Assembly (NCBI RefSeq): GCF_000526715.1
Contig: NZ_JAGP01000001.1
Span: 2,385,026-2,449,025, forward strand
DNA: 64,000 nucleotides
Reading direction: 5' to 3'
Origin: Hydrogenovibrio kuenenii DSM 12350
GTDB lineage: Bacteria; Pseudomonadota; Gammaproteobacteria; Thiomicrospirales; Thiomicrospiraceae
Position numbers and translations under genes: made by a program. A model generated the notes under the pieces. That model saw only the letters and a list, made by a program, of their open reading frames with translations, searched no databases and had not been told where the DNA came from. Position 1 is the first letter of the stretch. Every line of letters begins with the position of its first letter. Below are positions 3,127-51,596 of the stretch, piece after piece.

Positions 3127-3145
3127 AAAATCTGCCAGGCTGGGT
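3127..3145 (+). repeat. Dispersed 20-bp motif, copy 1 (intergenic)
   Basis: AAAATCTGCCAGGCTGGGT matches the window consensus AAAATCTGCCAGGCTGGGGT except for a missing G in the G-run. It lies between the dsbA terminator and the next gene. Confidence 0.85.
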
Positions 3146-3180
3146 AGATCAAGCATAACTGAGGATTAAAGGGACTCATA

Positions 3181-6982: not shown

Positions 6983-7717
6983 ATGAAAACAGTTTTAATT
7001 GGTTTGTTTTTAACTTTTTTTTCCGTTTCTTGTTTTGCAGCTGCAGACAAAGACAGTTCGCCAATGAATGATAAGGATCCCTATGAATCCTATAACCGTT
7101 TTATGTTTAATTTTAATATGGGGTTTAATGATTCAGTCGGTGCACCAGTTGCTAATGTTTATAAAAATTATGTTCCATCACCAGCACGAAAAGGCATCAG
7201 TAATTTTTTCCAAAATTTAAAAGAACCGTTAAATATTGTTAATGCGCTTTTTCAAGCTAAGCCGAAAGAAGCTTTAACGAGCTTGATGAGATTAAGTTTG
7301 AATACAACATTAGGCTTATTCGGGTTAATTGATATAGCGACGCCTGCCAAATTAAAATATCAAAAAGAAGATTTGGGTCAAACGCTTTATAAATGGGGTG
7401 TTTGGGATAAATCTTCATTTATTATGATGCCAATTTTAGGGCCTTACACAACACGTGAGTTGGTTGGTGGATCTGTTGATTCAACTTATGATCCAACCTA
7501 CCCTTATTTGATCAAAACAGATTTATCTGGAAGAGTTGGTTTCTTTATAGGTGGAAAATTTGTTGATTACACTAAGGCAATGACTTTGATTCCTGAAATT
7601 AAAGCGCAACCAGATCCTTACATTTTTATGCGTGAATCCTATCTACAATATCGAACTAATTTGATTTACGACGGTCATCCTCCACAACCTAAATTAGATG
7701 ATTTTGATTTTAATTAG
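6983..7717 (+). CDS. mlaA: MlaA/VacJ family outer-membrane phospholipid-trafficking protein
   Basis: MlaA sits in the outer membrane and removes mislocalised phospholipids from the outer leaflet, passing them to the MlaC/MlaFEDB pathway. The 244-residue product has a hydrophobic leader with SVSC at the processing site, an unusual lipobox because the -3 residue is Ser instead of Leu/Val. The family core DPYESYNRFMFNFN is present at about residues 33-46, followed by the conserved PARKGISNFFQNLKEP and EDLGQTLYKWGV segments. No other mla genes are adjacent. It starts only five bases after the oxyR-like stop and may be cotranscribed with it. Confidence 0.92.
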   Translation: MKTVLIGLFLTFFSVSCFAAADKDSSPMNDKDPYESYNRFMFNFNMGFNDSVGAPVANVYKNYVPSPARKGISNFFQNLKEPLNIVNALFQAKPKEALTSLMRLSLNTTLGLFGLIDIATPAKLKYQKEDLGQTLYKWGVWDKSSFIMMPILGPYTTRELVGGSVDSTYDPTYPYLIKTDLSGRVGFFIGGKFVDYTKAMTLIPEIKAQPDPYIFMRESYLQYRTNLIYDGHPPQPKLDDFDFN

Positions 7718-7725: not shown

Positions 7726-7745
7726 AAAATCTGCCAGGCTGGACC
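7726..7745 (+). repeat. Dispersed 20-bp motif, copy 2 (intergenic)
   Basis: AAAATCTGCCAGGCTGGACC matches the first 17 bases of the consensus exactly. It lies just after the mlaA stop. The rest of the mlaA-downstream spacer (7746-7868) shows no other recognisable element. Confidence 0.85.
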
Positions 7746-10749: not shown

Positions 10750-12534
10750 TTAATTTTGTGGTGATTCCAAACCCTTGGTTTGTAATCTTGCAATCCTTTT
10801 AGATAGAGTGTGTAAACGTTTCAGTGCATCGACAATTTGCATTTCTATTCTAAAAATAATCAGTCTGGATTCATCTGATCTCATATGTTTCACTTGATGT
10901 TTTAATGTCATTTGTATCATTTCATCAATGGCTGCTTTTGCTGAAAACACTTCCAAAGCTTTTTCTTTTTGCTGCTCATCAAGAGCAATTAAAGCATTAT
11001 TTAGAGATTTAACCACTTCTTTGGTGATATTACCCATTAAATCCTGCATGGTAGGGCTAACCTTGAGTTGGAATTCAAACGTTTGATGGCGGGCATCTAA
11101 CAGTCCATTTTCAATGGTTTCCATTACCGATTCTAATATGTTCGATATGGTAATCAATTCAACATATTTTTGTTGTTGGGTTTCATCAAGATTAGATTGA
11201 GAGATTTTGCTTAAATACAGCAATATTAAATGTTGATATTGTCGAAGCTGTCGAAGTGATTTTTCTTCAAATTTAAGAGCATTTAATTGAACAGGATAGT
11301 TATTGTTTATGAAATGTTGGAATAGATTATTCAGTTTTTCACGAAAAACATTCAGTTCCATTACAACTGCACCAAAAGCTAATTCAGGGGTTTTTAGAAA
11401 GTTGTCATCCAAAAATTTAGGATCGAATGATTGTTGTTTTTCTTCATCCAAAACGGGTACGAAACGGTAAGCTAGCCAAACAAATAAACCCAGTAAAGGT
11501 AAAAATAGAATCAGAGCAGAAAGTTTGAAAATTGTATTGGCATTGGCAATCTCACGAGGTGTATTTTCTGCCAGGCTGGCCATAGAATTTAAGTCAGTTC
11601 CTGTCATTGGAGAAATATAAACAGCTAAAGCTGCTAACACACTAATAAACGGTAACCAAAGTAGCACGCCAAATACATTGAACAGCACATGAATCAAAGC
11701 TGCTCTAATCGCTTCTCGAGATTGTCCGATGGTAGCGAGAACCGCTGTAATACAAGTACCTATGTCAGCGCCCATCGATAGAGCAATACCGTTGGGTAAG
11801 GTCAAAAATCCTTGGCTTGCCATGACAATCACAATACCAATAGTTGCTGAAGAAGACTGTACTAAGGCAGTAAACCCCAGGCCAATCAAAATGCCGTAAA
11901 GTGGATGGTTAAGTTCTCTGATTGTTTGTAAAAAAGGCTCATAGGTTTTGAGTGGAGACATACCTTCACCCATTAAATTCATGCCGATGAAAAGTAACCC
12001 AAGACCTAAAAGCAATTGGCCGAAATTTTTTCTAACACGTGTTTCGCTCATAAATTGAATTAGAAAACCGACAAAGACCATTATGAGTGCTAGGTTGTAG
12101 ATTTTGAAAGCAACGATTTGGGCAGTGATTGTTGTCCCTAAGTTTGCTCCCATTATGATGCTACCCGCCTGCATAAGCGTCATCATGCCTGAAGCAACAA
12201 AACCGATGACTAAAACACTAGTGACGGAAGAAGATTGGATAATAGCAGTTACGAAAGTACCAGATAGGGCGCCCATCACTCGGTTGGTGGTTAAGGTAGC
12301 TAGCAGTTGTTTCATGCGGCCACCGGCAATTGCCAACAAGCCTTTAACCATCAAATCCAAACCAAAGAGAAAGAGTGCTAGACCGCCTAATAATTGCAAC
12401 AGCATTTCATACCAATTCAGGGTAGAAATCATTTCTCTTGGTAGAACAGCCAGTGCAGTACCTGACCAAAAAAGTAGCAGTAGGAGAGTTTTGACAGGTT
12501 TTATTTTGATTTGCATAGGTACAGCTTTAAACAA
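10750..12534 (-). CDS. Na/Pi cotransporter family protein with C-terminal PhoU-like domain
   Basis: A 594-residue NptA/YjbB-type protein (PF02690 repeats), expected to move phosphate across the inner membrane with sodium; bacterial members have been linked to phosphate export. The two inverted family repeats are each marked by a QSSS motif: FVTAIIQSSSVTS in the first and TALVQSSSATIG in the second. Eight or more membrane segments precede residue ~350. The soluble C-terminal ~220 residues are helical and PhoU-like, which suggests regulation by phosphate status. An internal ATG six codons in (12516) is an alternative start. A partial copy of the dispersed 20-bp motif lies inside the gene at 11564-11581. 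Confidence 0.88.
   Translation of the reverse strand: MFKAVPMQIKIKPVKTLLLLLFWSGTALAVLPREMISTLNWYEMLLQLLGGLALFLFGLDLMVKGLLAIAGGRMKQLLATLTTNRVMGALSGTFVTAIIQSSSVTSVLVIGFVASGMMTLMQAGSIIMGANLGTTITAQIVAFKIYNLALIMVFVGFLIQFMSETRVRKNFGQLLLGLGLLFIGMNLMGEGMSPLKTYEPFLQTIRELNHPLYGILIGLGFTALVQSSSATIGIVIVMASQGFLTLPNGIALSMGADIGTCITAVLATIGQSREAIRAALIHVLFNVFGVLLWLPFISVLAALAVYISPMTGTDLNSMASLAENTPREIANANTIFKLSALILFLPLLGLFVWLAYRFVPVLDEEKQQSFDPKFLDDNFLKTPELAFGAVVMELNVFREKLNNLFQHFINNNYPVQLNALKFEEKSLRQLRQYQHLILLYLSKISQSNLDETQQQKYVELITISNILESVMETIENGLLDARHQTFEFQLKVSPTMQDLMGNITKEVVKSLNNALIALDEQQKEKALEVFSAKAAIDEMIQMTLKHQVKHMRSDESRLIIFRIEMQIVDALKRLHTLSKRIARLQTKGLESPQN
11564..11581 (+). repeat. Dispersed motif, partial copy 3 (inside Na/Pi gene)
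   Basis: TTTTCTGCCAGGCTGGCC keeps the 12-base core CTGCCAGGCTGG. In the minus-strand gene it encodes ASLAEN. Confidence 0.7.
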
Positions 12535-20388: not shown

Positions 20389-20408
20389 ACCTCTTTTTAG
20401 AGGGTTTT
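20388..20408. terminator. Bidirectional hairpin between convergent mcp and cytochrome genes
   Basis: ACCTCT and AGAGGGT form a short stem around a T-rich loop with T4 on the plus side and an A-run (T on the minus strand) on the other. It fills the gap between the convergent genes, so it probably ends both transcripts. Confidence 0.5.
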
Positions 20409-20838
20409 AAAGCTTGAGCGCCTTTACTTTGATTTGGTAAGCTTTATGGCAAGCAACACAGTTTTTTTGTAATGCCGCCAAACGGTTTAGGATGACCTCT
20501 TTATCACCCAGACTTGAAGCTTCATCAGCAATGCTTTCAAAGCCACGATGTGTTTCTGGACCTAATTTCATCATACCAGGTGGTAGTTGTTTTTTAAGCG
20601 ATAGAGGAGTGTTCTTAATCATTTTGATACCTACTTCTCGCGCTGATTTTTCCACTTGGTCCATATTATCTGCCAGGCTGGCCTCTAGTATTTGTTGGCT
20701 GGCAGACATGAAATCACGCATTTCTTGTAAGAACATGGCTTTTTGTTCTGCAGATAGCCACACAATGGTTCGGTTATCTGCATAGCTATTGGCTGAAAAT
20801 ATCAGCCCCATTAACATCAATAAAAGATTTCTTTTCAT
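20407..20838 (-). CDS. Periplasmic cytochrome c'-like (class II c-type) protein
   Basis: From the ATG at 20838 the protein is 143 residues, with AAAGGAGC at good spacing upstream; a GTG one codon earlier is not needed. It has a signal peptide of about 20 residues ending NSYA. A helical body follows, with a single C-terminal heme motif CVACH (Cys127, Cys130, His131) followed by KAYQ, the placement typical of cytochrome c' and c-556. Such proteins bind NO or CO or carry electrons in the periplasm; which applies here cannot be told. It lies about 30 bases downstream of the TetR gene on the same strand and is probably cotranscribed with it. Confidence 0.82.
   Translation of the reverse strand: MKRNLLLMLMGLIFSANSYADNRTIVWLSAEQKAMFLQEMRDFMSASQQILEASLADNMDQVEKSAREVGIKMIKNTPLSLKKQLPPGMMKLGPETHRGFESIADEASSLGDKEVILNRLAALQKNCVACHKAYQIKVKALKL
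20666..20683 (+). repeat. Dispersed motif, partial copy 4 (inside cytochrome gene)
   Basis: TTATCTGCCAGGCTGGCC keeps the core ATCTGCCAGGCTGG. In the minus-strand gene it encodes ASLADN, nearly the same peptide as the copy in the Na/Pi gene. Confidence 0.7.
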
Positions 20839-21632: not shown

Positions 21633-23723
21633 ATGCAGAACTCCGAAGTTTCGACGAATCCTCTTTTGGATATAAATGGTTTACCGAGATTTGATGCGTT
21701 TCATGTGGAACACATTAAACCCGCTGTCGAAACTCTGATCAAAGAAAACCTAGAAAAGATCGAGTATTTGATTGAGGAATCAATCGCGCCGACTTGGGAA
21801 AATTTTGTTCAGCCGCTAGAAGTACTGAGTAACCGTTTGGAAAGAGTTTGGGGGCCGGTCAGTCATTTAGATGCAGTGAAAAATAATGATGCTTGGCACG
21901 AAGCTTATAATGAGTGTCTTGCACCGATTACGGATTACTATGCACAGATGGGTCAAAACAAAGGTTTGTTTAAAAAGTTTGAAGCCATAGTTAATTCAGC
22001 GGAATATCACAGCTATACACTTGCTCAGAAAAAGGTTGTGGAAAATGCATTACGGGATTTTCGTTTATCCGGTATCGATCTGCCAAGTGAAAAGCAGGAT
22101 GAATACAAATCTATCTCGCAGAAATTATCGCAATTGAGCAGTCAGTTTAGTAACAATGTTTTAAAAAGTAGCCAAGCTTGGTCAAAGCATATTACAGATG
22201 AAGCTGAGTTGTCTGGACTGCCAGAAACTGCAATGGGTTTATTGAAGCAACTCGCTGAACAGCGTAGCGAAAAGGATGGAAAGTCTTATCCGGGTTGGAT
22301 GGTGACGTTAGATTTTCCATCTTATCTGGCAGTGATGACACATGCAGATAATCGCTCTCTAAGAGAAGAGGTGTATAAAGCATTTTCTACTAGAGCATCT
22401 GAATTGGCAGATAATCCAGCCTATGATAATTCCGACTTGATTAGACAAATCTTAGATTTACGCCATCAAAAAGCCCAATTACTTGGTTTTGATCATTATG
22501 CAGATTTATCGCTTGCAACCAAAATGGCAGAGTCAATCGAGCAAGTAACAAGCTTTATTCGCGATTTGGCAACACAATCCAAACAACAAGCCGAGCTTGA
22601 GCTCAATAAACTAAAAGACTTTGCCAAAACCCTTGACCCCAGCCTGGTAGATTTTCAACCTTGGGATGTTAGCTATTGTTCTGAGAAATATAAGAATGAA
22701 ACCCTGTCTTTATCACAGGAAGTACTTCGTCCTTTTTTTCCGGTGGAAAAAGTATTGGGCGGTCTATTTAAAATTACCGAGACTTTGTTTGGGGTAAAAG
22801 TCCAGCAGCGTGAAGATGTAAAAACCTGGCATAAAGATGTGCGTTTTTATGATGTCATGGGTAATCAGAATGAAGTTGTGGCGTCTTTTTATCTCGACTT
22901 ATATGCCCGAGAAAATAAGCGTGGTGGCGCATGGATGGATTCGGCAATCAGTCGTTGGAAATTGCCATCTGGAGAAATTCAAACGCCTGTAGCTTATTTA
23001 GTGTGTAACTTCACGCCGCCAGTCGGCGATAAACCAGCGTGTTTAACGCATGACGAGGTAACAACCTTATTCCATGAGTTTGGTCATGGTTTACATCACA
23101 TGTTGACGGAAATGAGCCACTTTGATGTTTCTGGCATTAATGGTGTGCCCTGGGATGCAGTAGAGTTGCCATCACAATTTATGGAAAACTTTTGCTGGCA
23201 TAGAGAAAGCTTAGATTTAATGACTTCTCATATTGAAACAGGCGATTGTCTGCCGGAAGAGTTATTGCAAGCATTGCAAAAAAGTAGAGGTTTTCAGTCG
23301 GCAATGATGATGTTACGTCAATTGGAATTCAGTCTGTTTGATTTTGTTGCACACGCTGAATATGATCCGAATGAACCCAAAGAAATTCTGCAGCTTGCAC
23401 AAGAAGTACGTGATGAAGTAGCTGTGATTCAACCACCTGAATACAGTCGTTTTGCACAAAGTTTTAGTCATATATTCTCAGGTGGCTATGCTGCAGGCTA
23501 TTTCAGTTATAAGTGGGCAGAAGTACTGTCTTCAGATGCGTTTGGGTTATTTGAAGAAGAAGGCATCCTTAACCCAGATATTGGCGCTAAGTTTAAAAAC
23601 ACGATTTTAGCTGCTGGCGGTTCTGTTCATCCGATGACATTGTTTAAAAGTTTCCGAGGGCGCGAACCACGGGTTGAAGCTTTATTAAGGCATTCTGGCA
23701 TTAAGGTGGAAGATGCTGCTTAA
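21633..23723 (+). CDS. prlC: Oligopeptidase A, M3 zinc metallopeptidase
   Basis: A cytoplasmic M3-family peptidase that degrades short peptides, including cleaved signal peptides. The 696-residue length is close to the ~680 of E. coli PrlC/OpdA. The zinc motif HEFGH is at residues 481-485, and the downstream ligand region GVPWDAVELPSQFMENFCW is conserved. Ribosome site AAAGGG lies upstream of the ATG. The last four bases overlap the convergent lpxR-like gene. A 19/20 copy of the dispersed motif lies inside the gene at 22636-22655, and a weak three-mismatch parS-like match is at 21697-21712. Confidence 0.95.
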   Translation: MQNSEVSTNPLLDINGLPRFDAFHVEHIKPAVETLIKENLEKIEYLIEESIAPTWENFVQPLEVLSNRLERVWGPVSHLDAVKNNDAWHEAYNECLAPITDYYAQMGQNKGLFKKFEAIVNSAEYHSYTLAQKKVVENALRDFRLSGIDLPSEKQDEYKSISQKLSQLSSQFSNNVLKSSQAWSKHITDEAELSGLPETAMGLLKQLAEQRSEKDGKSYPGWMVTLDFPSYLAVMTHADNRSLREEVYKAFSTRASELADNPAYDNSDLIRQILDLRHQKAQLLGFDHYADLSLATKMAESIEQVTSFIRDLATQSKQQAELELNKLKDFAKTLDPSLVDFQPWDVSYCSEKYKNETLSLSQEVLRPFFPVEKVLGGLFKITETLFGVKVQQREDVKTWHKDVRFYDVMGNQNEVVASFYLDLYARENKRGGAWMDSAISRWKLPSGEIQTPVAYLVCNFTPPVGDKPACLTHDEVTTLFHEFGHGLHHMLTEMSHFDVSGINGVPWDAVELPSQFMENFCWHRESLDLMTSHIETGDCLPEELLQALQKSRGFQSAMMMLRQLEFSLFDFVAHAEYDPNEPKEILQLAQEVRDEVAVIQPPEYSRFAQSFSHIFSGGYAAGYFSYKWAEVLSSDAFGLFEEEGILNPDIGAKFKNTILAAGGSVHPMTLFKSFRGREPRVEALLRHSGIKVEDAA
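22636..22655 (-). repeat. Dispersed 20-bp motif, 19/20 copy (inside prlC)
   Basis: ACCCCAGCCTGGTAGATTTT is the reverse-complement form with one change (C to T). It encodes DPSLVDF in prlC. Confidence 0.8.
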
Positions 23724-30468: not shown

Positions 30469-30520
30469 AAAATCTGCCAGGCTGGGGTCAGGGATAGATA
30501 ACCCAGCCTGGTATATTTTT
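30469..30520. terminator. Bidirectional terminator made of two inverted copies of the dispersed 20-bp motif
   Basis: An exact 20-mer AAAATCTGCCAGGCTGGGGT at 30469-30488 faces an inverted partial copy ACCCAGCCTGG at 30501-30511. CCAGGCTGGG and CCCAGCCTGG form a perfect 10-bp stem with a 15-base loop. A T-run follows on the plus strand (TATATTTTT) and four T follow on the minus strand. It sits exactly between the convergent CPBP and batD genes. Confidence 0.8.
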
Positions 30521-35422: not shown

Positions 35423-35961
35423 TTGTGATGCCCCTTAATCCATTGCTTCACATAATTGAGCGTTTCTTGAATGTCTTGCGGTTCTAAAGGTTGGTTTGGG
35501 TTGTAGAGTGAGGCAAAGCAATCCTCTAGGCCATCTGGTTGTTGTACATAGGATGCGCTTTGTTTTAGAAACAATACCCAATCTATACCCGTGAGGCCGG
35601 CGACTTGTTTCCGTCCATAGCTGGTAATTGCTACTTGTTTGAGTAGTTGGTTTGCAATTTGTAACTGACGCTTTGGGTTGTCGGATTTTGCAATGGCATC
35701 GTCAAATAAAGACTGTGCTTCTCGACGATATTGGTTTTGTTTGCGTTGATTCAAAAAATACCAACTCAACCCAATGATAATGCCGGCAACACCAATAAAT
35801 AACGCAATAAGTGAATCGGAAATAGGCCACCAGCCAACCGGAGGGGGCACCACTATGTCATGCAGCTGTGATAAAGCAGCTTGCAGTTGAGGTGAGACAT
35901 TAGTTGCGGCATTAGTATTCGGTAGAGTGTTGAGCATGGTGTTCGGCATGGTTGTCGGCAT
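35419..35961 (-). CDS. DUF4381 family protein of Bat operon 1
   Basis: A 180-residue protein with one membrane segment (SLIALFIGVAGIIIGLSWYFL, about residues 48-68) followed by a basic helical cytoplasmic part. The segment PPPVGWWPISD just before the membrane segment is the family hallmark and matches PPQPGTNWWLGLE in the second operon. DUF4381 proteins are constant partners in MoxR-VWA operons, with no known activity. A run of closely spaced ATG and ACC codons at the N-terminus (MPTTMPNTMLNTLPNTN) makes the start uncertain. The CDS overlaps batA by four bases and follows the DUF58 stop by one base. Confidence 0.85.
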   Translation of the reverse strand: MPTTMPNTMLNTLPNTNAATNVSPQLQAALSQLHDIVVPPPVGWWPISDSLIALFIGVAGIIIGLSWYFLNQRKQNQYRREAQSLFDDAIAKSDNPKRQLQIANQLLKQVAITSYGRKQVAGLTGIDWVLFLKQSASYVQQPDGLEDCFASLYNPNQPLEPQDIQETLNYVKQWIKGHHK

Positions 35962-35962
35962 C

Positions 35963-36904: not shown

Positions 36905-36914
36905 TTGTCCAAGC

Positions 36915-37886
36915 TTAGATAACAGGTACCAATTGAATCAGTTGGTCGACCAATTTGTCGGCAGTCATACCTGCTGCTTCGCCTTCGAAACTCAGTAATA
37001 ATCTATGACGGAAAACATCATGTACAATCGCTTGAACTTCTTCCGGGCTGACAAAATCCTGACCTTTTAACCAAGCCAATGCACGCGCACCACGTGATAA
37101 GGCGAGGGTTGCACGAGGGCTAACGCCAAACTCGATGTATTTCGCGAGTGCTGGGTCATATTTTTCCAATTGACGGGTAGCCATTACCAATTCGACAATA
37201 TAGGTCTTGGTTTCTTCGGATAGATAGAGATTCAGAATTTCGTTTCTGGCTTCAAATAAATCTTCTTGTGATAATGGCTCGAAATACGGGAATCCTGCGC
37301 TGTTGTCTCGTGCTTCGTCTTCAACCAGATTCAAAATGTTGCGTTCAGTTTCTGCATTTGGGTAGTCGATTTGTACATGCAGCATAAAGCGGTCGAGCTG
37401 CGCTTCCGGCAGAGGATAGGTTCCTTCCTGTTCGATCGGGTTTTGGGTTGCCATAACCATAAACAAACGTTCAAGCGGTAGCGTGTGTTTTCCCACGGTA
37501 ACCTGTTCTTCTGCCATGGCTTCTAACAATGCAGATTGCACTTTGGCAGGTGCTCGGTTGATTTCATCGGCAAGAATTAAGTTATGAAAGATAGGGCCTT
37601 TTTGCAGACCAAATTCACCATTAGGCTGCAGAACTTCGGTTCCGGTGATATCGGAAGGCAATAAATCCGGTGTGAATTGAATACGGTGATAATCGCCTTC
37701 GATCAATTCAGATAGGGTTTTAATGGCTTTGGTTTTAGCCAGACCCGGAGGGCCTTCTACCAATACGTGGCCATCAGCCAGTAAAGCGACCAACATGCGT
37801 TCAGTAAGGTGATGTTGACCGAGAATATGTTGATCCAATCTCGCCAATAATGCAGAAAATTTTTCAGATAAATTGGTTGCGGACAT
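36915..37886 (-). CDS. moxR: MoxR-type AAA+ ATPase of Bat operon 1
   Basis: A 323-residue AAA+ ATPase, first gene of the minus-strand operon. Walker A is EGPPGLAKT at residues 44-52 and Walker B ILADEINRAPAKVQ at about 107-120. The sensor region ATQNPIEQEGTYPLPEAQLDRF is the MoxR hallmark. MoxR proteins act as chaperone-like activators of VWA partners, which are encoded downstream here. The 158-bp region between this start and the cmoB stop should contain the operon promoter; I saw no clear -35/-10 pair. It is clearly paralogous to the ATPase at 45709. Confidence 0.94.
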   Translation of the reverse strand: MSATNLSEKFSALLARLDQHILGQHHLTERMLVALLADGHVLVEGPPGLAKTKAIKTLSELIEGDYHRIQFTPDLLPSDITGTEVLQPNGEFGLQKGPIFHNLILADEINRAPAKVQSALLEAMAEEQVTVGKHTLPLERLFMVMATQNPIEQEGTYPLPEAQLDRFMLHVQIDYPNAETERNILNLVEDEARDNSAGFPYFEPLSQEDLFEARNEILNLYLSEETKTYIVELVMATRQLEKYDPALAKYIEFGVSPRATLALSRGARALAWLKGQDFVSPEEVQAIVHDVFRHRLLLSFEGEAAGMTADKLVDQLIQLVPVI

Positions 37887-39871: not shown

Positions 39872-39891
39872 AAAATCTGCCAGGCTGGGGT
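39872..39891 (+). repeat. Dispersed 20-bp motif, exact copy (intergenic)
   Basis: AAAATCTGCCAGGCTGGGGT, exact consensus, between the mltC-like stop and the cmoA start. Confidence 0.9.
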
Positions 39892-39904: not shown

Positions 39905-41092
39905 TCAAGCTTTGAGGTATTTGGTTTTATTGCGCGTGACCTTTTGTACGTAATGACGTGCTTCTTCGTATTTCAAGTGGTTGACTAGGTGTTGATAGAC
40001 CTGCTGGCTGGACAGTTTATTGATCTTATCAACAGCGCGACCACGGTCGTTATCGAAAGCTTTGAGTACATTGCCACTGCCGGTGTTGTAGGCAGCAATC
40101 ACGCAGTATTCTCGTGATTTTTCATGTTTGATATTGCCGAGGTATTTGGTATCGAGAATATGCAAGTAGGCTGTACCCATCTCGATATTGTTGTCAGCTT
40201 TAAATAGATAGTTTTTGCTGGGGGCGACATCTTTATTGTGAATCAAACGGTATGCATCGCGCCCTGCAGTTTGCGGTACGATCTGCATCAAGCCGTAAGC
40301 GGGAATATGGCTCATGGCATAAGGGTTGAACGCACTTTCAGTTTCGATAATGGCATAAACCAATGCTGGCTCAATATCAAAACGTTTACTTTCACGCTTA
40401 ACCTGTGAGGCATATTTTCTTTGTTGGCTCTGATCGTGATCTTTCACCATTTCAAAGGTGACGTAATGGCGAGCTTTACCATTGTAGCTGTCGCTTTTAT
40501 AAGCGTGTGCCAGTAGATAATCTGCATAGCGGCCAGCACGCCATTGGGTGGTGACGGATTTTTTATCTCGATCCAATACCAGTCCGTATAAAAATGGTTT
40601 TTGACCGGTTTTGACAGATTTGTCAGACAATAAATCGACCGTACTCGGGTCATCAGGCGTGAGAAGAGTGCTGATGATGGCGGCTTTTAATGCTGCTTTT
40701 TCATTTTTGGCAACCACAGTTTCGACACGGATATGGCCTGTCTTGAAGTTGATGATGGCACGACTTTGGTATTTGTCGGTGTATTTAACATACTCTTTTT
40801 GAGAAGCGACTTTTTTATCGCCCCAAGTTTTCGCCAGCTCTTTAACGAGATGATTGATTTGTTTACGAACTAGGTGGTCGATTTGTGGGATGCCGGTTAC
40901 AGGTATTTGTGAGGTCAACGCACTTGGCACATCGCCTTTATAGAGTTGTTCGGCCGAGCTAAAGCTTCTGCGGACTTGTGTTGGTGTGCATCCGGCAAGC
41001 AGTCCAATCGCGCCCAACGAAAGGAAGGCGCTACCATTTTTTAAAAATTGGCGGCGGCTGGCGATATCAAGTTGTTTTTTAGGTTCTTCCAT
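39905..41092 (-). CDS. mltC: MltC-like lytic murein transglycosylase with Tat-like lipoprotein leader
   Basis: A 395-residue protein with an N-terminal DUF3393 domain (about 60-215) and a C-terminal SLT goose-lysozyme-like domain. The SLT domain carries IIETESAFNPYAMS (catalytic Glu at 250/252), AYGLMQIVP and YNTGSGNV, the MltC domain order. It would cleave peptidoglycan glycan strands in the periplasm. The leader SRRQFLKNGSAFLSLGAIGL ends in the lipobox LLAGC (Cys35). The twin arginine followed by FLK suggests Tat export, which is unusual for MltC. It is five bases downstream of the nuclease gene, so the two are cotranscribed. Confidence 0.88.
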   Translation of the reverse strand: MEEPKKQLDIASRRQFLKNGSAFLSLGAIGLLAGCTPTQVRRSFSSAEQLYKGDVPSALTSQIPVTGIPQIDHLVRKQINHLVKELAKTWGDKKVASQKEYVKYTDKYQSRAIINFKTGHIRVETVVAKNEKAALKAAIISTLLTPDDPSTVDLLSDKSVKTGQKPFLYGLVLDRDKKSVTTQWRAGRYADYLLAHAYKSDSYNGKARHYVTFEMVKDHDQSQQRKYASQVKRESKRFDIEPALVYAIIETESAFNPYAMSHIPAYGLMQIVPQTAGRDAYRLIHNKDVAPSKNYLFKADNNIEMGTAYLHILDTKYLGNIKHEKSREYCVIAAYNTGSGNVLKAFDNDRGRAVDKINKLSSQQVYQHLVNHLKYEEARHYVQKVTRNKTKYLKA

Positions 41093-42899: not shown

Positions 42900-42929
42900 A
42901 TGAGCCTAAAGTCGAGCTTTGAAAAATGA
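42900..42929 (+). CDS. Nine-codon leader ORF coupled to the next gene
   Basis: A strong ribosome site AGGAG (42890-42894) stands five bases before ATG at 42900, opening a 9-residue peptide MSLKSSFEK. Its stop overlaps the ATG of the following gene (ATGA at 42926-42929). The peptide resembles the start of the next protein (MSLESALNT), so it may be a leader peptide that provides translational coupling or a relic of a duplicated or frameshifted start. Confidence 0.4.
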   Translation: MSLKSSFEK

Positions 42930-43426
42930 GTTTAGAAAGTGCTTTGAATACCTGGAATGGTCATCCCGATGACCTGCAAGCCATTTATCGACAGTATAAA
43001 ATACAATCAGACTTCATCTCCCAAGTCATTCCTCTGCTAAAACAAAAACAACAACGTGGCGCCAGCGAACTATTAAAGTTTTATCTGTTGAATCAACAAA
43101 CGCTAACAGATGGCGAGGTAAATGATATTTTTCGAAGTCTAGGTTTGATACGGCATTGGCAGACGCAAGAAAATTTGTTGGCTTGTTTGCCTTATCTTCA
43201 CCCTTATCCAAAACAAAAGCAGGCTGCGCTTGCCCACTTTATCCATAATGCATTGCACTCCAGTCATAAATCCATCTCGGTACTGGCAAAGCAAATGATT
43301 GCGGAATATGAGCAAGATTTTCCCGATCAGCCGATTTCACAATTCCTTTCTGAAGAAGAAAAGGCGAAGGATAACAGTACACCTAAAAAATCTAATGCAG
43401 AGCAAACAACTCAGTCACTTTTTTAG
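42926..43426 (+). CDS. Hypothetical 166-residue helical protein
   Basis: A helical cytoplasmic protein with no signal or membrane segment. The middle part (ASELLKFYLLNQQTLTDGEVN and repeats of paired helices to about residue 130) looks like a HEAT- or ARM-like solenoid. The tail is hydrophilic. The ATG at 42926 lacks its own good ribosome site and relies on the leader ORF upstream. Its stop is 11 bases from an exact copy of the dispersed 20-bp motif. Family not recognised. Confidence 0.65.
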   Translation: MSLESALNTWNGHPDDLQAIYRQYKIQSDFISQVIPLLKQKQQRGASELLKFYLLNQQTLTDGEVNDIFRSLGLIRHWQTQENLLACLPYLHPYPKQKQAALAHFIHNALHSSHKSISVLAKQMIAEYEQDFPDQPISQFLSEEEKAKDNSTPKKSNAEQTTQSLF

Positions 43427-43437: not shown

Positions 43438-43457
43438 ACCCCAGCCTGGCAGATTTT
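43438..43457 (-). repeat. Dispersed 20-bp motif, exact copy (convergent gene ends)
   Basis: ACCCCAGCCTGGCAGATTTT, the exact reverse complement of the consensus, filling the gap between two convergent genes; its last base is the last base of the MFS stop codon. Confidence 0.9.
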
Positions 43458-44725
43458 TACGTTTTTTTCGGCAGACTAATCTGAACGACTATAGCCGATA
43501 GTAACATGGCGATGCTGACGAACCAGAAAGGCAAAATCAGGTTTTGTGACCATTGCGCCATAATCCCCATTGCTAAAGCGCCAAAGGCATAGCCGGAATC
43601 TCGCCAGAAACGATAGATACCAATTAGGCTTGCACGGTGTTGTGCCGGTGCAAAGTCACCAACAGCCGCTCCTAAGTTTGGGTAGAGCATTGCCATACCG
43701 AATCCGATAAAAGCGGCTTCCAATGTCCACAATGAAATGCTTGCAGTATAAGGAATGGCGAGAATACCCACGCCACAAAATATCATCCCCCATACAATCA
43801 AAATTTTGCGACCGATTTTGTCGGAAAGCGGCCCCGTAATCAATTGGCTTGCGCCCCAAACAATACCGTACACGGCAATGATCGCCCCTGCCTGTACTAA
43901 AGTAAGCTTTTGCGTGAGAAAGTAGACGGGAAGGAATATCCAAATAATGGCATCGGTGAATTTTTCTACCAGCCCGGCTTGATTGAGTGCGATAAGGTGT
44001 TTGTTTTCAATACTTGCGGTTTTGAAAAGCTGCCCAAGTGTTTTATGCGTTGTTTCCTGACCTGCCGCTTGTGCATTTTGGGTGTGCAATTGCGCCCAAG
44101 GTAAGGTTTCAATAATGGTAAATTTTGCCAGCAATAAGCCAGATAAAATCACAATTAAACTGAAAATGAATAGACCCTCTTTCGCGCCCCAAAGCTCAAC
44201 AAAATAGGCGGTTACAAACCCCGCTATCCCGACAGCAGCGTAGCCGGAAAATTCATTAACACCATTTACTAGGCCTTTTTGAGTACTTTTAGCTAAATCC
44301 AATTTACTGTTAAGTGCCATTGACCAACATAACCCTTGGTTGAATCCCAATAAAACGGTAGCAGCGATAATCCAATTCCAATTTGGAGAATAAAGCAGCA
44401 TAAACGGAATGGGCAAGGCAATCAGCCAACCCCAAATCAATACGCGTTTACGGCCATGGTGCTCGCTGAGTTTACCGGCAAACAGATTCATTACTGCTTT
44501 GACGATACCGAACACGACAACAAATGAGGTTAGCAAGAAAAAAGCTTGATCTGCCAGTCCAAAATCCGTTTTAGCCAGCCCAGGTACAACCACACGAGTC
44601 ATACCGATAGTTAAGCCGACAAGAAAAATCTGGATGAGATGCATGGCAAATTGATGTTTGTTGAGTGAGATGCCATGGACAATAGATGGCTGATGGTTGA
44701 TTGTCATAGTGTGTGGTATCCGCAT
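43457..44725 (-). CDS. MFS transporter
   Basis: A 422-residue major-facilitator protein with about 12 membrane segments. Motif A-like segments are LFAGKLSEHHGRKRVLIWG between TM2 and TM3 and TGPLSDKIGRKILIVWG in the second half. The substrate is unknown. It is divergent from an ArsR-rhodanese regulator gene across a perfect inverted repeat, so it is probably the regulator's target. That arrangement would suit export of a sulfur compound, metalloid or toxic metabolite. A later ATG at 44707 is an alternative start; neither has a good ribosome site. Confidence 0.85.
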   Translation of the reverse strand: MRIPHTMTINHQPSIVHGISLNKHQFAMHLIQIFLVGLTIGMTRVVVPGLAKTDFGLADQAFFLLTSFVVVFGIVKAVMNLFAGKLSEHHGRKRVLIWGWLIALPIPFMLLYSPNWNWIIAATVLLGFNQGLCWSMALNSKLDLAKSTQKGLVNGVNEFSGYAAVGIAGFVTAYFVELWGAKEGLFIFSLIVILSGLLLAKFTIIETLPWAQLHTQNAQAAGQETTHKTLGQLFKTASIENKHLIALNQAGLVEKFTDAIIWIFLPVYFLTQKLTLVQAGAIIAVYGIVWGASQLITGPLSDKIGRKILIVWGMIFCGVGILAIPYTASISLWTLEAAFIGFGMAMLYPNLGAAVGDFAPAQHRASLIGIYRFWRDSGYAFGALAMGIMAQWSQNLILPFWFVSIAMLLSAIVVQISLPKKT

Positions 44726-45708: not shown

Positions 45709-46713
45709 ATGTCCACTCTAAACGATTTTAAAAATTTAAAAACGCATTTACAGAAGGTAATCGTAGGGCAAGAGTCATTACTGGAACGTTTAATGATTGC
45801 GATGCTGACAGGTGGACATTTGTTGTTGGAAGGGCCTCCAGGTCTGGCCAAAACCACTGCAGTAAAAACGTTGGCTGAAGCCGTAAAAGCAAGCTTTCAA
45901 CGTATTCAGTTCACACCGGATTTAATGCCTGGGGATGTAATGGGGTCAGATATTCTCGATCCGCAATCTGGGCAATTGAACTTTGTAAAAGGACCGATTT
46001 TTAACGAAATCGTGCTGGCAGATGAAATCAACCGTGCACCACCGAAAGTACAGTCGGCTTTGCTGGAAGCGATGGCAGAGAAACAAGTCACGGCTGGTGG
46101 TAAGACGCGAATTTTGCCGGATTTGTTTATTGTTATGGCAACGCAAAACCCTTTAGAACAAAGCGGAACCTATCCGCTACCAGAAGCGCAACTTGACCGT
46201 TTTATGTTGCATGTGGTGTTGGATTACCCAACGGATGAAGAAGAGTTGGCAATCTTGCGCCTTGATCGCGCGCATCACTTTGGTGAAGACAAAGAACAAC
46301 TGGATGCTTTCTTAACGCCGGAGATGGTATTAAGTGCTCGTCATAAAATTTCAGAGCAATATGTGTCGCCAGAAGTTGAAAAATATATGGTGGACTTAAC
46401 TGCCGCAACCCGTCATCTTGATAAGTATGATGCTTCATTGGCTGGTATCGTTGAGATCGGTGCATCACCTCGTGCAACCTTGTCGCTTTTGCACAGTGCG
46501 AGTGCTTATGCTTGGTTGCAAGGGCGTGACTTTGTGACACCGGATGATGCCATTGTCATGCTGCCGGATATTTTAAGACATCGTATTCGTGTCAGCTTTT
46601 CTGGCCGTGCGCAACAGTGGACGGAAGATTCGGTGATTACCGAAATCATTAAACGTGTTCCGGTGCCTATGTCTCAAGCTTCTGAGTCAGTAGCGCAAAC
46701 TGCTGTTCAATAA
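45709..46713 (+). CDS. moxR: MoxR-type AAA+ ATPase of Bat operon 2
   Basis: A 334-residue MoxR ATPase, first gene of a plus-strand six-gene operon. Walker A is EGPPGLAKTTAVKT and Walker B LADEINRAPPKVQSALLEAM, with the ATQNPLEQSGTYPLPEAQLD sensor region. It is similar to the copy at 36915 but clearly diverged, so the two operons are old paralogues or separately acquired. AAAGGAAAG precedes the start by six bases. The 162-bp spacer upstream should contain the operon promoter. Confidence 0.94.
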   Translation: MSTLNDFKNLKTHLQKVIVGQESLLERLMIAMLTGGHLLLEGPPGLAKTTAVKTLAEAVKASFQRIQFTPDLMPGDVMGSDILDPQSGQLNFVKGPIFNEIVLADEINRAPPKVQSALLEAMAEKQVTAGGKTRILPDLFIVMATQNPLEQSGTYPLPEAQLDRFMLHVVLDYPTDEEELAILRLDRAHHFGEDKEQLDAFLTPEMVLSARHKISEQYVSPEVEKYMVDLTAATRHLDKYDASLAGIVEIGASPRATLSLLHSASAYAWLQGRDFVTPDDAIVMLPDILRHRIRVSFSGRAQQWTEDSVITEIIKRVPVPMSQASESVAQTAVQ

Positions 46714-46733
46714 ACTTCGATTTAAGGTTTTAT

Positions 46734-47732
46734 ATGTCATCAAAGTCGGTGTTATCACAGCTTAGTGGGTGGTTGTACAAGCTTTTCAAGCCTGTACAGC
46801 CGGACGCTTTGGTGGTCAAACAGCCGATTTTGTCGCAACAAGCGATTAACCAATTAGGTGAGAGCTTGTCACAGATGGTGCCGAAAGCCACGTTAAACCC
46901 AAAAGCCAGTGAGTCCTTAAAGCAAGGTGAGCAAGGCAGTCGTTTTCTTGGGTCTGGTATGGAGTACGAAGAAAGCCGCTTGTATCAGCCGGGCGATGAA
47001 GTGCGTCGTATTAACTGGCGCTTGATGGCACGAACCGGGCAAGCCTACACCAAACTGTTTCAGGAAGAGCGTCAAGAAAGCTGGACCTTGTTGGTGGATC
47101 AGCGCCAATCCATGCGCTTCGGTACTCAGCAACGATTGAAAGTGACTCAAGCCGTTCGTGTTGCCGGCTATTATGCTTGGCAAGCACAAACAGCAGGTTT
47201 GCCGATAGATGCGATTCGTTTGTCGGAAAACGTTAAATCCACTCCTATTTTTGAAGGCCGTAGTAGTTTTGAGCAATTGATGGAGTTTTTGTCGATTCCA
47301 CAACCGCCAATGACAGTGCAAAAAGAACCGCGCTTGCATGATGAGTTATTGGAGTGCCAAAAACGTCTACAAGTAGGGTCAAGGTTAATTATTATCAGCG
47401 ACTTTCAGGATTTGGATGATGCGACTTTGAATGTGATGGCAGCGTTACAACAAAAAGTCATGCTAAAAGCTGTGTTGGTCTATGACGCAGTGGAAAAACA
47501 TCTGCCAGCTATTTCTGGTCTCAAGTTAAAGGGTTTAAGCGGGCGAACGCAAGCACACAGCTTGACCCACCAAGATTACCAAGCCTATGAAACCTGGGCG
47601 CAACAATACTTTGAGACTTTGCGTCAAAAATTATCCAATGTTGGCGTCACTCTTATCGAAATCTCGACACAGGACGATTTGCTGAAATTGCATAATCAAC
47701 CCGGTTCTGCTCAGACGGCGGGGGCGGCTTAA
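46734..47732 (+). CDS. DUF58 domain protein of Bat operon 2
   Basis: A 332-residue protein with the DUF58 signature LYQPGDEVRRINWRLMART at about residues 83-101, preceded by GSRFLGSGMEYEESR. It has no membrane segment. The start follows the moxR stop by 20 bases. It is longer at the N-terminus than its operon 1 counterpart. Predicted to couple the ATPase to the VWA membrane proteins encoded downstream. Confidence 0.9.
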   Translation: MSSKSVLSQLSGWLYKLFKPVQPDALVVKQPILSQQAINQLGESLSQMVPKATLNPKASESLKQGEQGSRFLGSGMEYEESRLYQPGDEVRRINWRLMARTGQAYTKLFQEERQESWTLLVDQRQSMRFGTQQRLKVTQAVRVAGYYAWQAQTAGLPIDAIRLSENVKSTPIFEGRSSFEQLMEFLSIPQPPMTVQKEPRLHDELLECQKRLQVGSRLIIISDFQDLDDATLNVMAALQQKVMLKAVLVYDAVEKHLPAISGLKLKGLSGRTQAHSLTHQDYQAYETWAQQYFETLRQKLSNVGVTLIEISTQDDLLKLHNQPGSAQTAGAA

Positions 47733-48377
47733 ATGTTGTTTTCAAGCCGACACATATCTAGAGTTACGTTATTGGTAGCAGGCGCCTCGATGCTTTATTC
47801 TTCTCTAAGCTTAGCGGCACAAGTTGCTTCACCTAGTGCTGAAAATGTTGCTACAAGTCAGGAACCCGCTACACAGTTGATTGATATTGAATTGCCACCC
47901 CAGCCTGGCACAAATTGGTGGCTTGGCTTGGAAATTGGTTTGGCGATAGTTGCCGTTATTGTGTTGTTAGCATTGCTCTATTGGTTGCGAAACCGCTACT
48001 GGCGTAGTTTTCATTTACGTTGGCAGTTAAAGAGCATGAGTAAACAGTGGGCTTCACTTTCAACGAATAATAGCCGTGAAGAAGCGCTTAAGCTATATCA
48101 GATTTTTGATAATGCCCAGCGTCATCAATTGTTATTGGAAAAGGATGCCATTGTCCTCAAAGAAACCTTAGAGCCTATGTGCTTTAGTCAAAATAATGCT
48201 TCACGTGAAACATTGGTTTCAGCCTTGTCGACATTAAAGCAAGCGCTTGCTGATTATGAAAAACACAAACTCAAATCCCTGCCTGGAAACTTAGCTCAAA
48301 GGTTGCGCAAAGCTGTTCATTACGGAATGACACGCTTGCAACAATCCAAAACCCACAGAGGGCAGAACCATGGTTAA
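47733..48377 (+). CDS. DUF4381 family protein of Bat operon 2
   Basis: A 214-residue protein that starts immediately after the DUF58 stop. An N-terminal signal peptide ends SLAAQ, followed by the DUF4381 hallmark IELPPQPGTNWWLGLEIGLA. One membrane segment (VAVIVLLALLYWL region, about 70-90) precedes a helical cytoplasmic part. It contains a partial copy of the dispersed motif (47897-47910) at the PPQPG codons and the best parS-like match of the window at 48197-48212. It overlaps the next gene by eight bases. Confidence 0.85.
   Translation: MLFSSRHISRVTLLVAGASMLYSSLSLAAQVASPSAENVATSQEPATQLIDIELPPQPGTNWWLGLEIGLAIVAVIVLLALLYWLRNRYWRSFHLRWQLKSMSKQWASLSTNNSREEALKLYQIFDNAQRHQLLLEKDAIVLKETLEPMCFSQNNASRETLVSALSTLKQALADYEKHKLKSLPGNLAQRLRKAVHYGMTRLQQSKTHRGQNHG
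47897..47910 (-). repeat. Dispersed motif, partial copy (inside DUF4381 gene 2)
   Basis: ACCCCAGCCTGGCA is the first 14 bases of the reverse-complement consensus; it encodes part of PPQPGT. Confidence 0.65.
48197..48212. promoter_or_regulatory. parS-like palindrome, 15 of 16 match
   Basis: TGCTTCACGTGAAACA differs from the ParB consensus TGTTTCACGTGAAACA only at position 3 and has the canonical central CG. Confidence 0.55.
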
Positions 48378-49500
48378 TGGTGGATTGAGTTGGCAAGTAT
48401 TTTGGCAAGAGCTACCAAATTGGCCGAGTTGGGTGTTTGAACATCCCGCTGCGATGGCATTGATTGGTTTGGCGCCGCTTTTAACGCTGTTGTTTTGGGG
48501 GGTGTCGAAAACTGTGAAACGTTTTACTGGACGAAGCGATTGGGATTCGGCAGCAGAAATGAAGTCTATGTCTTTTCGACATCCATTGATTGATCGGATG
48601 CATTGGATTGCGCAACCACAAGCAAAATCGAGTTTTTGGCGTTGGATATTGCAGGGACTGCGTTGGTCAATACTGGCTTTATTGGCGATTGCTTTGGCAA
48701 GTCCAGTTAAAGAAGTGCCTTTACCGCCTGAACCTCAAACCAAAACAGTGCGAGATTTGGTATTTGTTGTCGAAACCTCTGCTAGCTTTCTCTTGCCGGA
48801 TTATCAAATGAACGGTCAGCCAACCACGCGTATGGATGTGGTGAAATCGGTACTGGATCAATTTGTCTCTGGTTTACAGGGGAATCGCTTCAGTTTCATT
48901 GTCTATGCTGAAAATGCTTTTACGCTTATGCCATTAACCACCGATGCTGTTACTGCAAGACTGATGTTAAAAAGACTTAGACCTTACTTAGCGGGTCGTA
49001 CCGATGAAGCAGCCGGTGAAGCGTTAGGCCTAGGTTTGCAACAAACGGAAAAAAGTACCAAAACCACACAAAAGCGGGTGGTAATTTTTATCTCGGACGG
49101 ACAGTCTCGCGCCAGCCGTGTTCCTTTGGAAGATGCGGTTACTTATGCGCAAGGCTTAAATGTTCCTATTTATACCATTGGGATTGGAGCAGGAAGTAAG
49201 CAAGCCGATAAACGTGTATTTACCGGGTTGCTTTATCAACCATTAAAAAGCGGTATGCTGCGACATTTAGCCGCCGAAACGGGTGGGCGTTATTATCAGG
49301 TGAACGGCGAGGCGAGTTTGCAAAAAGTGTTGCAAGCGATCGACCAAACCGAAGGCGCACAATTGGAAACGCCGCAAAAGAAAACTGCAAAAATTGAACT
49401 ATATCCTTACTTTGTTGCTTTGGCATTAATGATATTCGTGCTGTATTTCAGTTTGGTTCAACTGCTGGCGAGACGCCTCCAAACAGAGGAAGCGGCTTGA
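48370..49500 (+). CDS. BatA-like VWA protein of Bat operon 2, altered MIDAS
   Basis: A 376-residue membrane protein with N-terminal hydrophobic segments (about 25-45 and 95-112), a VWA domain and a C-terminal membrane segment (FVALALMIFVLYFSL). The first MIDAS motif reads VVETSASF, with Glu in place of the usual Asp of DxSxS, while IFISDGQS is normal. Compared with its intact operon 1 paralogue, metal binding may be altered. It overlaps DUF4381 upstream by eight bases, and its stop shares one base with the next ATG (TGATG). Confidence 0.87.
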   Translation: MVNGGLSWQVFWQELPNWPSWVFEHPAAMALIGLAPLLTLLFWGVSKTVKRFTGRSDWDSAAEMKSMSFRHPLIDRMHWIAQPQAKSSFWRWILQGLRWSILALLAIALASPVKEVPLPPEPQTKTVRDLVFVVETSASFLLPDYQMNGQPTTRMDVVKSVLDQFVSGLQGNRFSFIVYAENAFTLMPLTTDAVTARLMLKRLRPYLAGRTDEAAGEALGLGLQQTEKSTKTTQKRVVIFISDGQSRASRVPLEDAVTYAQGLNVPIYTIGIGAGSKQADKRVFTGLLYQPLKSGMLRHLAAETGGRYYQVNGEASLQKVLQAIDQTEGAQLETPQKKTAKIELYPYFVALALMIFVLYFSLVQLLARRLQTEEAA

Positions 49501-51596
49501 TGGAACAACTATTGATGCAGCATTTAAATAATATCTGGGCATTTATTTTGCCGGAAGGTTGGCAGTGGCGAGATGCACAAACTTTGTGGTTTGTATTGAT
49601 TCCTGTTATTTGGTGGTTGGTTGTCTACCTGATTAAAAAACGCCAAGTAGCACACTATGCCGATGCAGATTTATTGCCTTGGGTAAAAGCTGATGCAGCA
49701 ACTCATCGTGGATCAGCATCATCCGTTGATATTGAAGGCACTAATACAAGACCCCAGCCTGGCAGATTTTTATGGCGTCTGGTAAAACGAATCTTAGGCG
49801 CATTTGTGTCACCAACGGCATTGCTTTCTTTTGCTTGGGTGGCGCTGATTATTGCATTGGCAGGGCCAAGAAGTGCGATTCCATCGCCCAATGAGTCGTC
49901 ACGAGCAGGTGTAGACATTTTGATAGGTTTGGATGTGTCGCGTTCCATGCTGGTTCAAGATATGGGCGGTAACCGTTTTATTTTTAGTCGTGCGCTAATC
50001 GAGTCTTTATTAAACAGGCTTGAACCAAACGATCGTGTCGGTCTGATGGTTTATGCCGGTAAACCGCATTTAGTTTCTCCTTTAACTTTCGATAGAGATT
50101 TGTTTAAACATTATCTGAGTTTGGTGCGCCCAGGCATGCTACCAACCAGAGGATCTCAAATTTATCCTGCACTGAATTTCGGCTTGAAGCATTTGCAACA
50201 AACCGCTGGTAAAGCACAAATTTTACTGATGCTGACAAATGGTGAACCCGCTGAATATGAATCGCAAACTTTACCGCAGAGTCTGGCTAAAAGAGGACTG
50301 ACCCAAACGCCTGGTGTTAAACAGGATAAAAAGGATGATTCGTCTGCTAAGGTGATTCTTGTTGGAGTTGGAAAAAACGCCGCAAGTCGTGTTCCAGAGT
50401 TTACCGATCCAACTGGCTATTTGCATGCCTATGGTCGCCTGGTGACGTCACGACTTGAAGCAGGTTTTTTGAAAAAATTGGCGGGTCAAATCAACGGTCA
50501 ATATCTTCAGGCAAGTAATCAGGGTTCCTTTTTGCAGAAACTTTTGGACTCTGTGACGGAAGAAGCACAGAAACGCACTATTGTCTCTTCAACACCTATT
50601 TGGCAAGACCATGCTTGGCCATTTATGGTAGCGGCATTTATTTTATTGATTTTGGCATTTTATCCCATTCGATTACGCCCTTCCGAGATGTCCGGTTCAC
50701 TTGGATTACTTGCTATTGCGTTAGTTTCAGCAGGTTTAACTGGGTTACCAACGCCTTCTCAAGCAGCAGATGAAGTTGATAGCGCTCAGCAGTCTTCGGC
50801 AGAGTTAAGCGCAAGTCAGCGTATCTCAAGACAACAGCAGGCTTTTCAAGCTTTTCAGACTAAAAAGTTTGAATTATCCGAGCAGCTTTATGATGGTTTA
50901 AACCAATATACGGGTTGGTTTGGCGCAGGTGATGCAGCTTACCGTGCCGGAGATTATGAGTCGGCAGTGCTCTACTTTACACAAGCTGCAGTAGCCGGCC
51001 ACAACGACAAAGAACGCGCCCATGCGTTGTTTAACCTAGGAAATACTTTTTTCGAATCCAATTTGATGCCTCAAGCGATAGAAGCCTATACGCAGGCATT
51101 GGTGTATGTGCCTGATTACGATAAAGCCAAGCATAATTTAGAGTTGGCGAAAAAAATGCAGCGTCAGAAAAAGAAAGGAAAGCAGAAAAACCAAGAAAAA
51201 GGTGATGGTAAGGGTGCAGGAAGCCAGTCCCGTGATGCTGAAGGCAGTTTTTATGGCGGACAAAAGCCTAATAGCGAACCTGGCAAAGGCGTATCGGGCG
51301 ACTCGGAAGATGGTGAAAAGCAGGCAAAAGATTTTGTATTGCCTGACGAAGAAGATCGTACCGACTTTCGTTTGAAATCTGAAGGCCGATTACAAGCAAA
51401 TGGCAAAGCTAATGATGTTGCTAATGCGATTATTGATCAGCAGAAACGCAGACAAACTATTGAGAAATTTGAACAGAAAATGAAGCAAGTTCAGGACAAG
51501 CAATCCGCCTTATTAAAGCGCTTATTTGAGCGTGAAGAAGGATTCCAAGCAGAGCAGGAGCAAGCGCACGACTTGCCTGGAGTGAAGCCATGGTAG
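49500..51596 (+). CDS. BatB/BatC fusion of Bat operon 2: VWA plus TPR
   Basis: A 698-residue membrane protein from the ATG at 49500, which overlaps the preceding stop by one base; a TTG one codon earlier is not needed. The VWA domain has MIDAS DVSRS and the later motif reads LTNGE where TDG is usual. A membrane segment lies near residue 385. TPR-like repeats are at about 460-560 (ALFNLGNTFFESNLMPQAIE) and a basic low-complexity tail follows. The closing region VANAIIDQQKRRQTIEKFEQ is helical. It has the same architecture as the operon 1 gene at 32256. An exact copy of the dispersed 20-bp motif lies inside it. Confidence 0.87.
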   Translation: MEQLLMQHLNNIWAFILPEGWQWRDAQTLWFVLIPVIWWLVVYLIKKRQVAHYADADLLPWVKADAATHRGSASSVDIEGTNTRPQPGRFLWRLVKRILGAFVSPTALLSFAWVALIIALAGPRSAIPSPNESSRAGVDILIGLDVSRSMLVQDMGGNRFIFSRALIESLLNRLEPNDRVGLMVYAGKPHLVSPLTFDRDLFKHYLSLVRPGMLPTRGSQIYPALNFGLKHLQQTAGKAQILLMLTNGEPAEYESQTLPQSLAKRGLTQTPGVKQDKKDDSSAKVILVGVGKNAASRVPEFTDPTGYLHAYGRLVTSRLEAGFLKKLAGQINGQYLQASNQGSFLQKLLDSVTEEAQKRTIVSSTPIWQDHAWPFMVAAFILLILAFYPIRLRPSEMSGSLGLLAIALVSAGLTGLPTPSQAADEVDSAQQSSAELSASQRISRQQQAFQAFQTKKFELSEQLYDGLNQYTGWFGAGDAAYRAGDYESAVLYFTQAAVAGHNDKERAHALFNLGNTFFESNLMPQAIEAYTQALVYVPDYDKAKHNLELAKKMQRQKKKGKQKNQEKGDGKGAGSQSRDAEGSFYGGQKPNSEPGKGVSGDSEDGEKQAKDFVLPDEEDRTDFRLKSEGRLQANGKANDVANAIIDQQKRRQTIEKFEQKMKQVQDKQSALLKRLFEREEGFQAEQEQAHDLPGVKPW
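49751..49770 (-). repeat. Dispersed 20-bp motif, exact copy (inside BatB/C-like gene 2)
   Basis: ACCCCAGCCTGGCAGATTTT, exact. It encodes RPQPGRFL here, a different reading frame from the copies that encode SLAD/SLAE, so the conservation is at DNA level. Confidence 0.9.

Follow-up and report, generated by a model that had tools for sequence, protein, structure and literature searches.

What is the function of a 20-bp motif that recurs in both orientations across a 64,000-nucleotide stretch of the Hydrogenovibrio kuenenii DSM 12350 genome (contig NZ_JAGP01000001.1, positions 2,385,026 to 2,449,025; the whole stretch is here called the window)? An earlier note on this DNA had suggested a DNA uptake signal or a chromosome signal. 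Having followed the motif through the complete genome and through a family comparison set of 62 genomes, we conclude from sequence that it is probably a DNA uptake signal, present in about 300 copies genome-wide. This explanation gives the best fit to the dispersion of the copies, their use of all six frames within genes, their placement at gene 3' ends and in pairs, the accompanying competence genes, and the existence of dialects that change in concert.

The genome that holds the window (G000; 2,452,457 bases in 2 contigs) contains 298 sites at up to two mismatches, 132 forward and 166 reverse, compared with none for the reversed pattern that served as the control in our counts, and the motif is therefore not confined to the region of the window. 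Shape and placement were studied in a sample of 855 kb, made up of 40 spaced 20-kb stretches and, from the window, its first 55 kb; the remaining 9 kb, largely occupied by a giant repeat gene, were excluded. Gene context was provided by a crude open reading frame (ORF) caller, which called 91% of the sampled DNA coding. The 105 sites picked at up to three mismatches yield a sharp logo, AAAATCTRCCAGGCTGGGKW, and the element, an A-tract plus a CCAGGCTGG core, is bounded sharply at 20 bp, with flanking columns that played no part in the picking holding 0.00-0.19 bits. The nine-base core occurs 111 times in the sample, in 103 cases together with the A-tract half. Dispersion over the genome is Poisson-like and involves both strands: counts per 20 kb have a mean of 2.75 and a variance of 2.96, and 4 of the 40 stretches are empty.

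The 117 sampled sites at up to three mismatches comprise 69 intergenic copies, 9 that span a gene edge, and 39 within genes. Two thirds (78) are therefore outside genes or on their edges, despite the 91% of coding DNA. These copies lie mostly at gene 3' ends, as the earlier note had observed for the window: 30 are between convergent genes, 38 between co-directional and 3 between divergent ones, with 7 at stretch ends. Among the in-gene copies, 17 share the strand of the gene (frames 5/5/7) and 22 run against it (frames 6/13/3), so that every one of the six frames is represented. Selection is therefore not on a peptide, which upholds the view that it acts on the DNA. Fifteen pairs of sites lie less than 100 bp apart, of which 12 are arranged +/- (11 at 28-32 bp and one at 56 bp) and 3 are arranged -/+; inverted pairs have likely been co-opted as transcription terminators.

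Within the window, nine matches at up to three mismatches stand against 0.01 on average over 100 dinucleotide shuffles. The window has 11 CCAGGCTGG words, every one of which falls within the 11 sites listed here:

3127..3146, + strand: copy with two mismatches, intergenic, downstream of gene 2378-3040
7726..7745, + strand: copy with three mismatches, 8 bp past the stop of gene 6983-7717
11563..11582, + strand: weak copy with six mismatches and CCAGGCTGG intact, within opposite-strand gene 10750-12534; reads SLAENTP
20665..20684, + strand: weak copy with four mismatches and the core intact, within opposite-strand ORF 20407-20841; reads SLADNMD
22636..22655, - strand: 19/20 copy, within large gene 21633-23723 (peptidase-like by sequence look); reads DPSLVDFQ
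30469..30488, + strand: exact copy, first arm of an inverted pair; the genes on either side are convergent
30500..30519, - strand: copy with three mismatches, second arm of the pair; both arms give a terminator-like hairpin
39872..39891, + strand: exact copy, intergenic, 13 bp downstream of minus-strand gene 39905-41092
43438..43457, - strand: exact copy, between convergent genes 42926-43426 (+) and 43457-44725 (-)
47897..47916, - strand: copy with three mismatches, within gene 47733-48377; reads PPQPGTNWW
49751..49770, - strand: exact copy, within gene 49497-51596; reads RPQPGRFLW

Two extra matches, at 28780 and 35254, have four to five mismatches and lack the core. Our recount returned the four exact 20-mers (30469, 39872, 43438 and 49751), the 19/20 copy at 22636 and the use of both orientations, all as first described. 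The partial copies called strong stood at 3127, 7726 and 47897 (two to three mismatches); three others had been placed one base off, the correct starts being 11563, 20665 and 30500, and the copies at 11563 and 20665 are weaker than claimed. Likewise, the reported peptides SLAE (11563), SLAD (20665), PQPGT (47897) and PQPGR (49751) were recovered, whereas the copy at 22636 reads SLVD. The pair at 30469/30500, proposed to form a terminator, does fold into a strong hairpin (-28.3 kcal/mol, z -3.7); two single copies, when folded, were no better than shuffles.

The closest relatives, G001 and G010, carry the same element with CCAGGTTGG replacing CCAGGCTGG, a change of C to T. At up to one mismatch, AAAATCTRCCAGGYTGGG has 360, 386 and 350 sites in G000, G001 and G010, respectively; among the other 59 of the 62 family genomes, 53 have none and six have one. 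The two forms are almost exclusive, with 111 CCAGGCTGG vs 1 CCAGGTTGG in the G000 sample and 58 CCAGGTTGG vs 1 CCAGGCTGG in the samples of G001 and G010. The aligned DNA (86 kb, 74% identity) has 17 distinct site positions. Thirteen are common to G000 and G001/G010, and every one of them has C on the G000 side and T on the other. Of the four unshared positions, G010 alone has two (one facing a degenerate remnant) and G000 alone has one; the fourth is a weak match with three mismatches, probably due to chance. Sites within genes follow the same rule: the T form is present in all six with aligned orthologues in G001 or G010, and wherever the changed base is non-synonymous (four of four) the protein differs accordingly, with A to T in TPAWQ twice (TPTWQ/PPTWQ) and S to N in PSLVD twice (PNLVD). 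The T core also lies downstream of 4 of 5 orthologues of genes with a downstream site, vs 0 of 67 other genes. Small as this sample is, the element looks like a DNA tag that would impose amino acids, in step, at the places it occupies. A tree of ComEC places G000, G001 and G010 in one clade (100/100), within which G001 and G010 are joined (100/99); seven palindrome-bearing genomes of the genus (see below) are grouped (97/98). The tree leaves the deeper branching open, and some of its rows are long.

The process known both to multiply a short motif at unlinked sites and to be able to convert those sites in concert is uptake with subsequent recombination. Sites would switch together because this process spreads whichever version the receptor prefers, and it is this process, together with the agreeing hallmarks of placement, that leads us to favor an uptake signal. 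What we observe is a DNA tag spread over the whole genome, whose dialects exclude one another and change in concert, in a family with competence genes; we consider it probable that cells read this tag when taking up DNA. We envisage that the bacteria are naturally competent and that a surface component of the type IV pilus attaches to the motif in free DNA, which would give preference to DNA from the same species. The reader would be a pilin, presumably not a recognizable ComP of the Neisseria type. Uptake and recombination would then propagate the version that the receptor prefers, and species would be hindered by their dialects from exchanging genes.

Many other members of the family have a symmetrical motif in place of the asymmetric one. 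The palindrome CCAGGCCTGG is present in 234-856 copies in 26 of the 62 genomes (reversed control 0-2); six further genomes have 15-106 copies and 30 have 0-8, the three asymmetric-dialect genomes having 0, 0 and 1. In six sampled genomes, A/T tracts lie 4-7 bp outside CCAGGCCTGG on both sides (66-100% A/T at -7..-4), and 101 of 166 copies lie in genes. Three comparisons out of 14, which involve two in-gene sites of G000 (one of them through a gapped alignment), have a palindrome at the place of the site, for example where TAAATCTGCCAGG-CTGGG in G000 faces TAAATCAGCCAGGCCTGGG in G008, which retains the A-tract half and has the second half-site one base farther out. Since the palindrome also occurs in three further genera, the asymmetric form is probably derived. 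G031 has yet another motif, ACCGGCCGGT, in 1025 copies (control 1), compared with 0-15 in the other 61 genomes (controls 0-19); nine CCGGCCGG words with A/T-rich surroundings lie in the one 20-kb stretch taken from it.

Several genomes show variants of their own. A 20-kb stretch of G025 (L263) has nine CAGGCCTG words, of which three read ACCAGGCCTGCC; the full palindrome occurs only 27 times in G025, and this variant looks like a skewed dialect. G016, of genus g7 and without the other dialects, has a dispersed AAAAAGTCGGGGACCCC consisting of an A-tract and a palindromic GC core (L249, L251 and L252; for example, L251:14948), possibly one more dialect. G015 has 263 palindromes, only 5 of which have A/T tracts at the usual spacing, and none in a 20-kb stretch at 57% GC (L324); the rules for A/T flanks may differ between genera. 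De novo word searches gave no motif in 80 kb each of G012 and G018, and the samples of G007 (13.5 kb), G061 and G062 (20 kb each) were too small for such a search. A class-wide census of the A/T-flanked palindrome found 0-2 per genome in 272 sampled genomes outside the family, a weak negative because its flank filter, which retains 55-100% of sites in six genomes, retains just 5 of 263 in G015.

Competence genes are present in the family. ComEC was matched in 29 of the 31 genomes searched, including 11 of 11 of the genus, and ComEA in 10 of 11 genomes, 9 of them over the cut-off; there are prepilin-like genes as well. ComEA and PilQ were among the genes that the earlier note had proposed to look for; the former was thus found, and the latter was matched only below cut-off. 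No correlation between ComEA and the motifs is claimed: G016, without a ComEA match, and G007, with one below cut-off, lack the known motifs, and the same is true of G012 and G018, where ComEA is present.

Several observations weigh against an uptake signal. The copy number, about 300-390, lies below the 1,000 or more that the available text of PMC1852404 gives as general for such signals. The PilQ model was matched by secretins in 11 of 11 genomes, none over cut-off, and ComP_DUS (PF16732) exceeded its cut-off in 0 of 62 genomes, with one marginal match in G018. G012 and G018 have both ComEC and ComEA, yet none of the motifs at strength. Eleven of the 14 in-gene comparisons with palindrome species show no palindrome, and palindromes lie downstream of 4 of 20 orthologues of G000 site-bearing genes vs 17 of 141 controls (p=0.30). 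The strands of the whole genome are used somewhat unequally (132:166, p=0.056). Among the literature matches listed, in a scope that leaves out most subscription journals, there is no report of competence or uptake bias for Hydrogenovibrio, Thiomicrospira or Thiomicrorhabdus, or of the palindrome. Finally, the core is symmetrical in many relatives, which would be equally compatible with a DNA-binding protein acting as a dimer.

This last point leads to the strongest of the alternatives, which we nevertheless regard as improbable: a nucleoid or chromosome-organizing protein that binds the motif, with a homodimer reading the palindrome and the dialects following changes in the protein. The even spread along the chromosome and the palindromic core of so many relatives agree with it. 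Such a protein, however, would supply no copying or drive process, and one would be needed to change hundreds of sites by one base in concert. The G000 version has lost the symmetry that a homodimer would need, and the copies show a strong preference for the 3' ends of genes and for hairpins. Site maps of the SlmA or MatP type are expected to have a gap, and there is none around the GC-skew switch.

Two further explanations are very unlikely. Chi and the FtsK-orienting polar sequences (KOPS) are short motifs over-represented on chromosomes, and a Chi-like or FtsK-guiding motif oriented by replication would share with ours its frequency, its shortness, its asymmetry in G000, and the slight excess of one orientation relative to GC skew in the 855-kb sample (68:51). 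This excess is not significant (p=0.14), sites are present on both sides of the skew switch, the palindrome of many relatives is directionless, and 20 bp is long for this class; the chromosome-signal alternative of the earlier note is thereby weakened. Equally doubtful is an element acting at the RNA level, in which the copies would be parts of intrinsic terminators or signals in 3' untranslated regions. The hairpin pairs, including that of the window, and the excess of convergent over divergent sites speak for it, but a third of the sampled sites (39 of 117) lie in genes, in every frame and on both strands, the two single copies that were folded did no better than shuffles, and at most 30 sampled sites belong to close pairs. 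Least likely of all is a small transposable element or repeat, a possibility that the earlier note had tied to longer flanking homology and that the hundreds of near-identical copies might suggest. The sampled sites have nothing in common beyond 20 bp, and sites lie in frame within genes, are common to sister species at 74% identity, and differ between them by the same base.

How does the putative uptake signal compare with the known ones? Hydrogenovibrio, which NCBI places in the Piscirickettsiaceae, is a free-living sulfur oxidizer, and Thiomicrospira is described in the same terms in an abstract. The available portions of PMC7811141 and PMC5031613 name sequence-specific uptake for two families, the Pasteurellaceae and the Neisseriaceae, which live mainly in mucosal environments (PMC7811141). 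With the DNA uptake sequence (DUS) of Neisseriaceae our motif has in common its many dispersed copies and its dialects along the phylogeny (as described in part of PMC3630211), as well as its terminator pairs (likewise PMC1852404). It differs in that its logo is unlike the ATGCCGTCTGAA consensus, as quoted in an excerpt of PMC5031613, or a dialect of it, in its fewer and longer sites, in the palindromic core of many relatives, and in the ComP_DUS model not exceeding cut-off. With the uptake signal sequence (USS) of Pasteurellaceae it shares dispersed copies and a GC-rich core with AT-tracts (excerpts of PMC7811141 and PMC5031613) and terminator hairpins (an excerpt of PMC1852404), the A-tract being on one side of the Hydrogenovibrio motif and A/T tracts flanking the palindrome, other than in G015. 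The core AAGTGCGGT given for Pasteurellaceae in the available text of PMC5031613 is unrelated to the Hydrogenovibrio logo, and the accessible part of PMC12616744 presents the USS receptor, ComN, as a prediction. Copy number is lower in Hydrogenovibrio, and its hosts are free-living. Chi and KOPS resemble the motif as short sequences over-represented on the chromosome, and differ in that ours has no significant replication-linked orientation and a palindromic form in many relatives.

The motif thus has features of the uptake-signal class, namely dispersed copies, selection at the level of DNA, inverted terminator pairs and competence machinery (with PilQ below cut-off), and the best reading is that of an uptake signal of a third kind, independent of the two known ones and having dialects. 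We also lean, with more reserve, towards a fuller history, in which the family invented a third, independent self-DNA recognition, based on a pilin unrelated to ComP and with at least four dialects; one lineage would have passed from the palindrome to the asymmetric form by drawing the half-sites together by one base, and a later C/T change of one base, imposed in step on its sites, proteins included, would have divided it into species that no longer exchange DNA. Explanations of sequence-specific uptake have leaned on mucosal habitat, and a third, unrelated case in free-living bacteria would, if true, put them to the test. It would also offer an independent replicate of a receptor and hundreds of genomic sites changing together, and natural pairs of dialects (C/T; palindrome/asymmetric) that could serve to find the receptor and to measure whether species are isolated by dialect.

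Candidate receptor genes lie at the following locus:

G000:C1:1863113-1865121: prepilin-like cluster beside a MiaB-like gene; four proteins, three with a prepilin model match and the fourth with none

Several of these MiaB-side genes carry the phrase LPCPDT, and they are candidates for the DNA receptor. The shortest prepilin is the most diverged between dialects (50-51% vs 79% within the T dialect); because pilins diverge fast anyway, we claim no receptor from this cluster. Neisseria ComP was rejected as the receptor on the 62-genome search described above. A GspH/FimT (PF12019) lead, matched among 19 family genomes in G012 and G018 only, was dropped because the neighboring pilin-like genes there resemble, by size and order, a type II secretion cluster.

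Among viral records, the exact 18-mer AAAATCTRCCAGGCTGGG was found in two viral-contig records only, at the same place of one phage gene, judging by the flanks, in a scan that may omit records close to the genome of the window; in L258, it lies within an open frame of a phage-like contig.

Elsewhere in the window, positions 55153-63468 hold a giant open frame of 2771 aa, in which units of ~100 aa recur almost unchanged and which has the look of an adhesin. Its final residues switch frame and the contig stops at the window end, which may leave some doubt about the assembly within the repeat. Two separate gene clusters, at 32256-37886 and 45709-53071, within 21 kb, each have, by sequence look, a MoxR-type ATPase and proteins of von Willebrand/BatA-like appearance.

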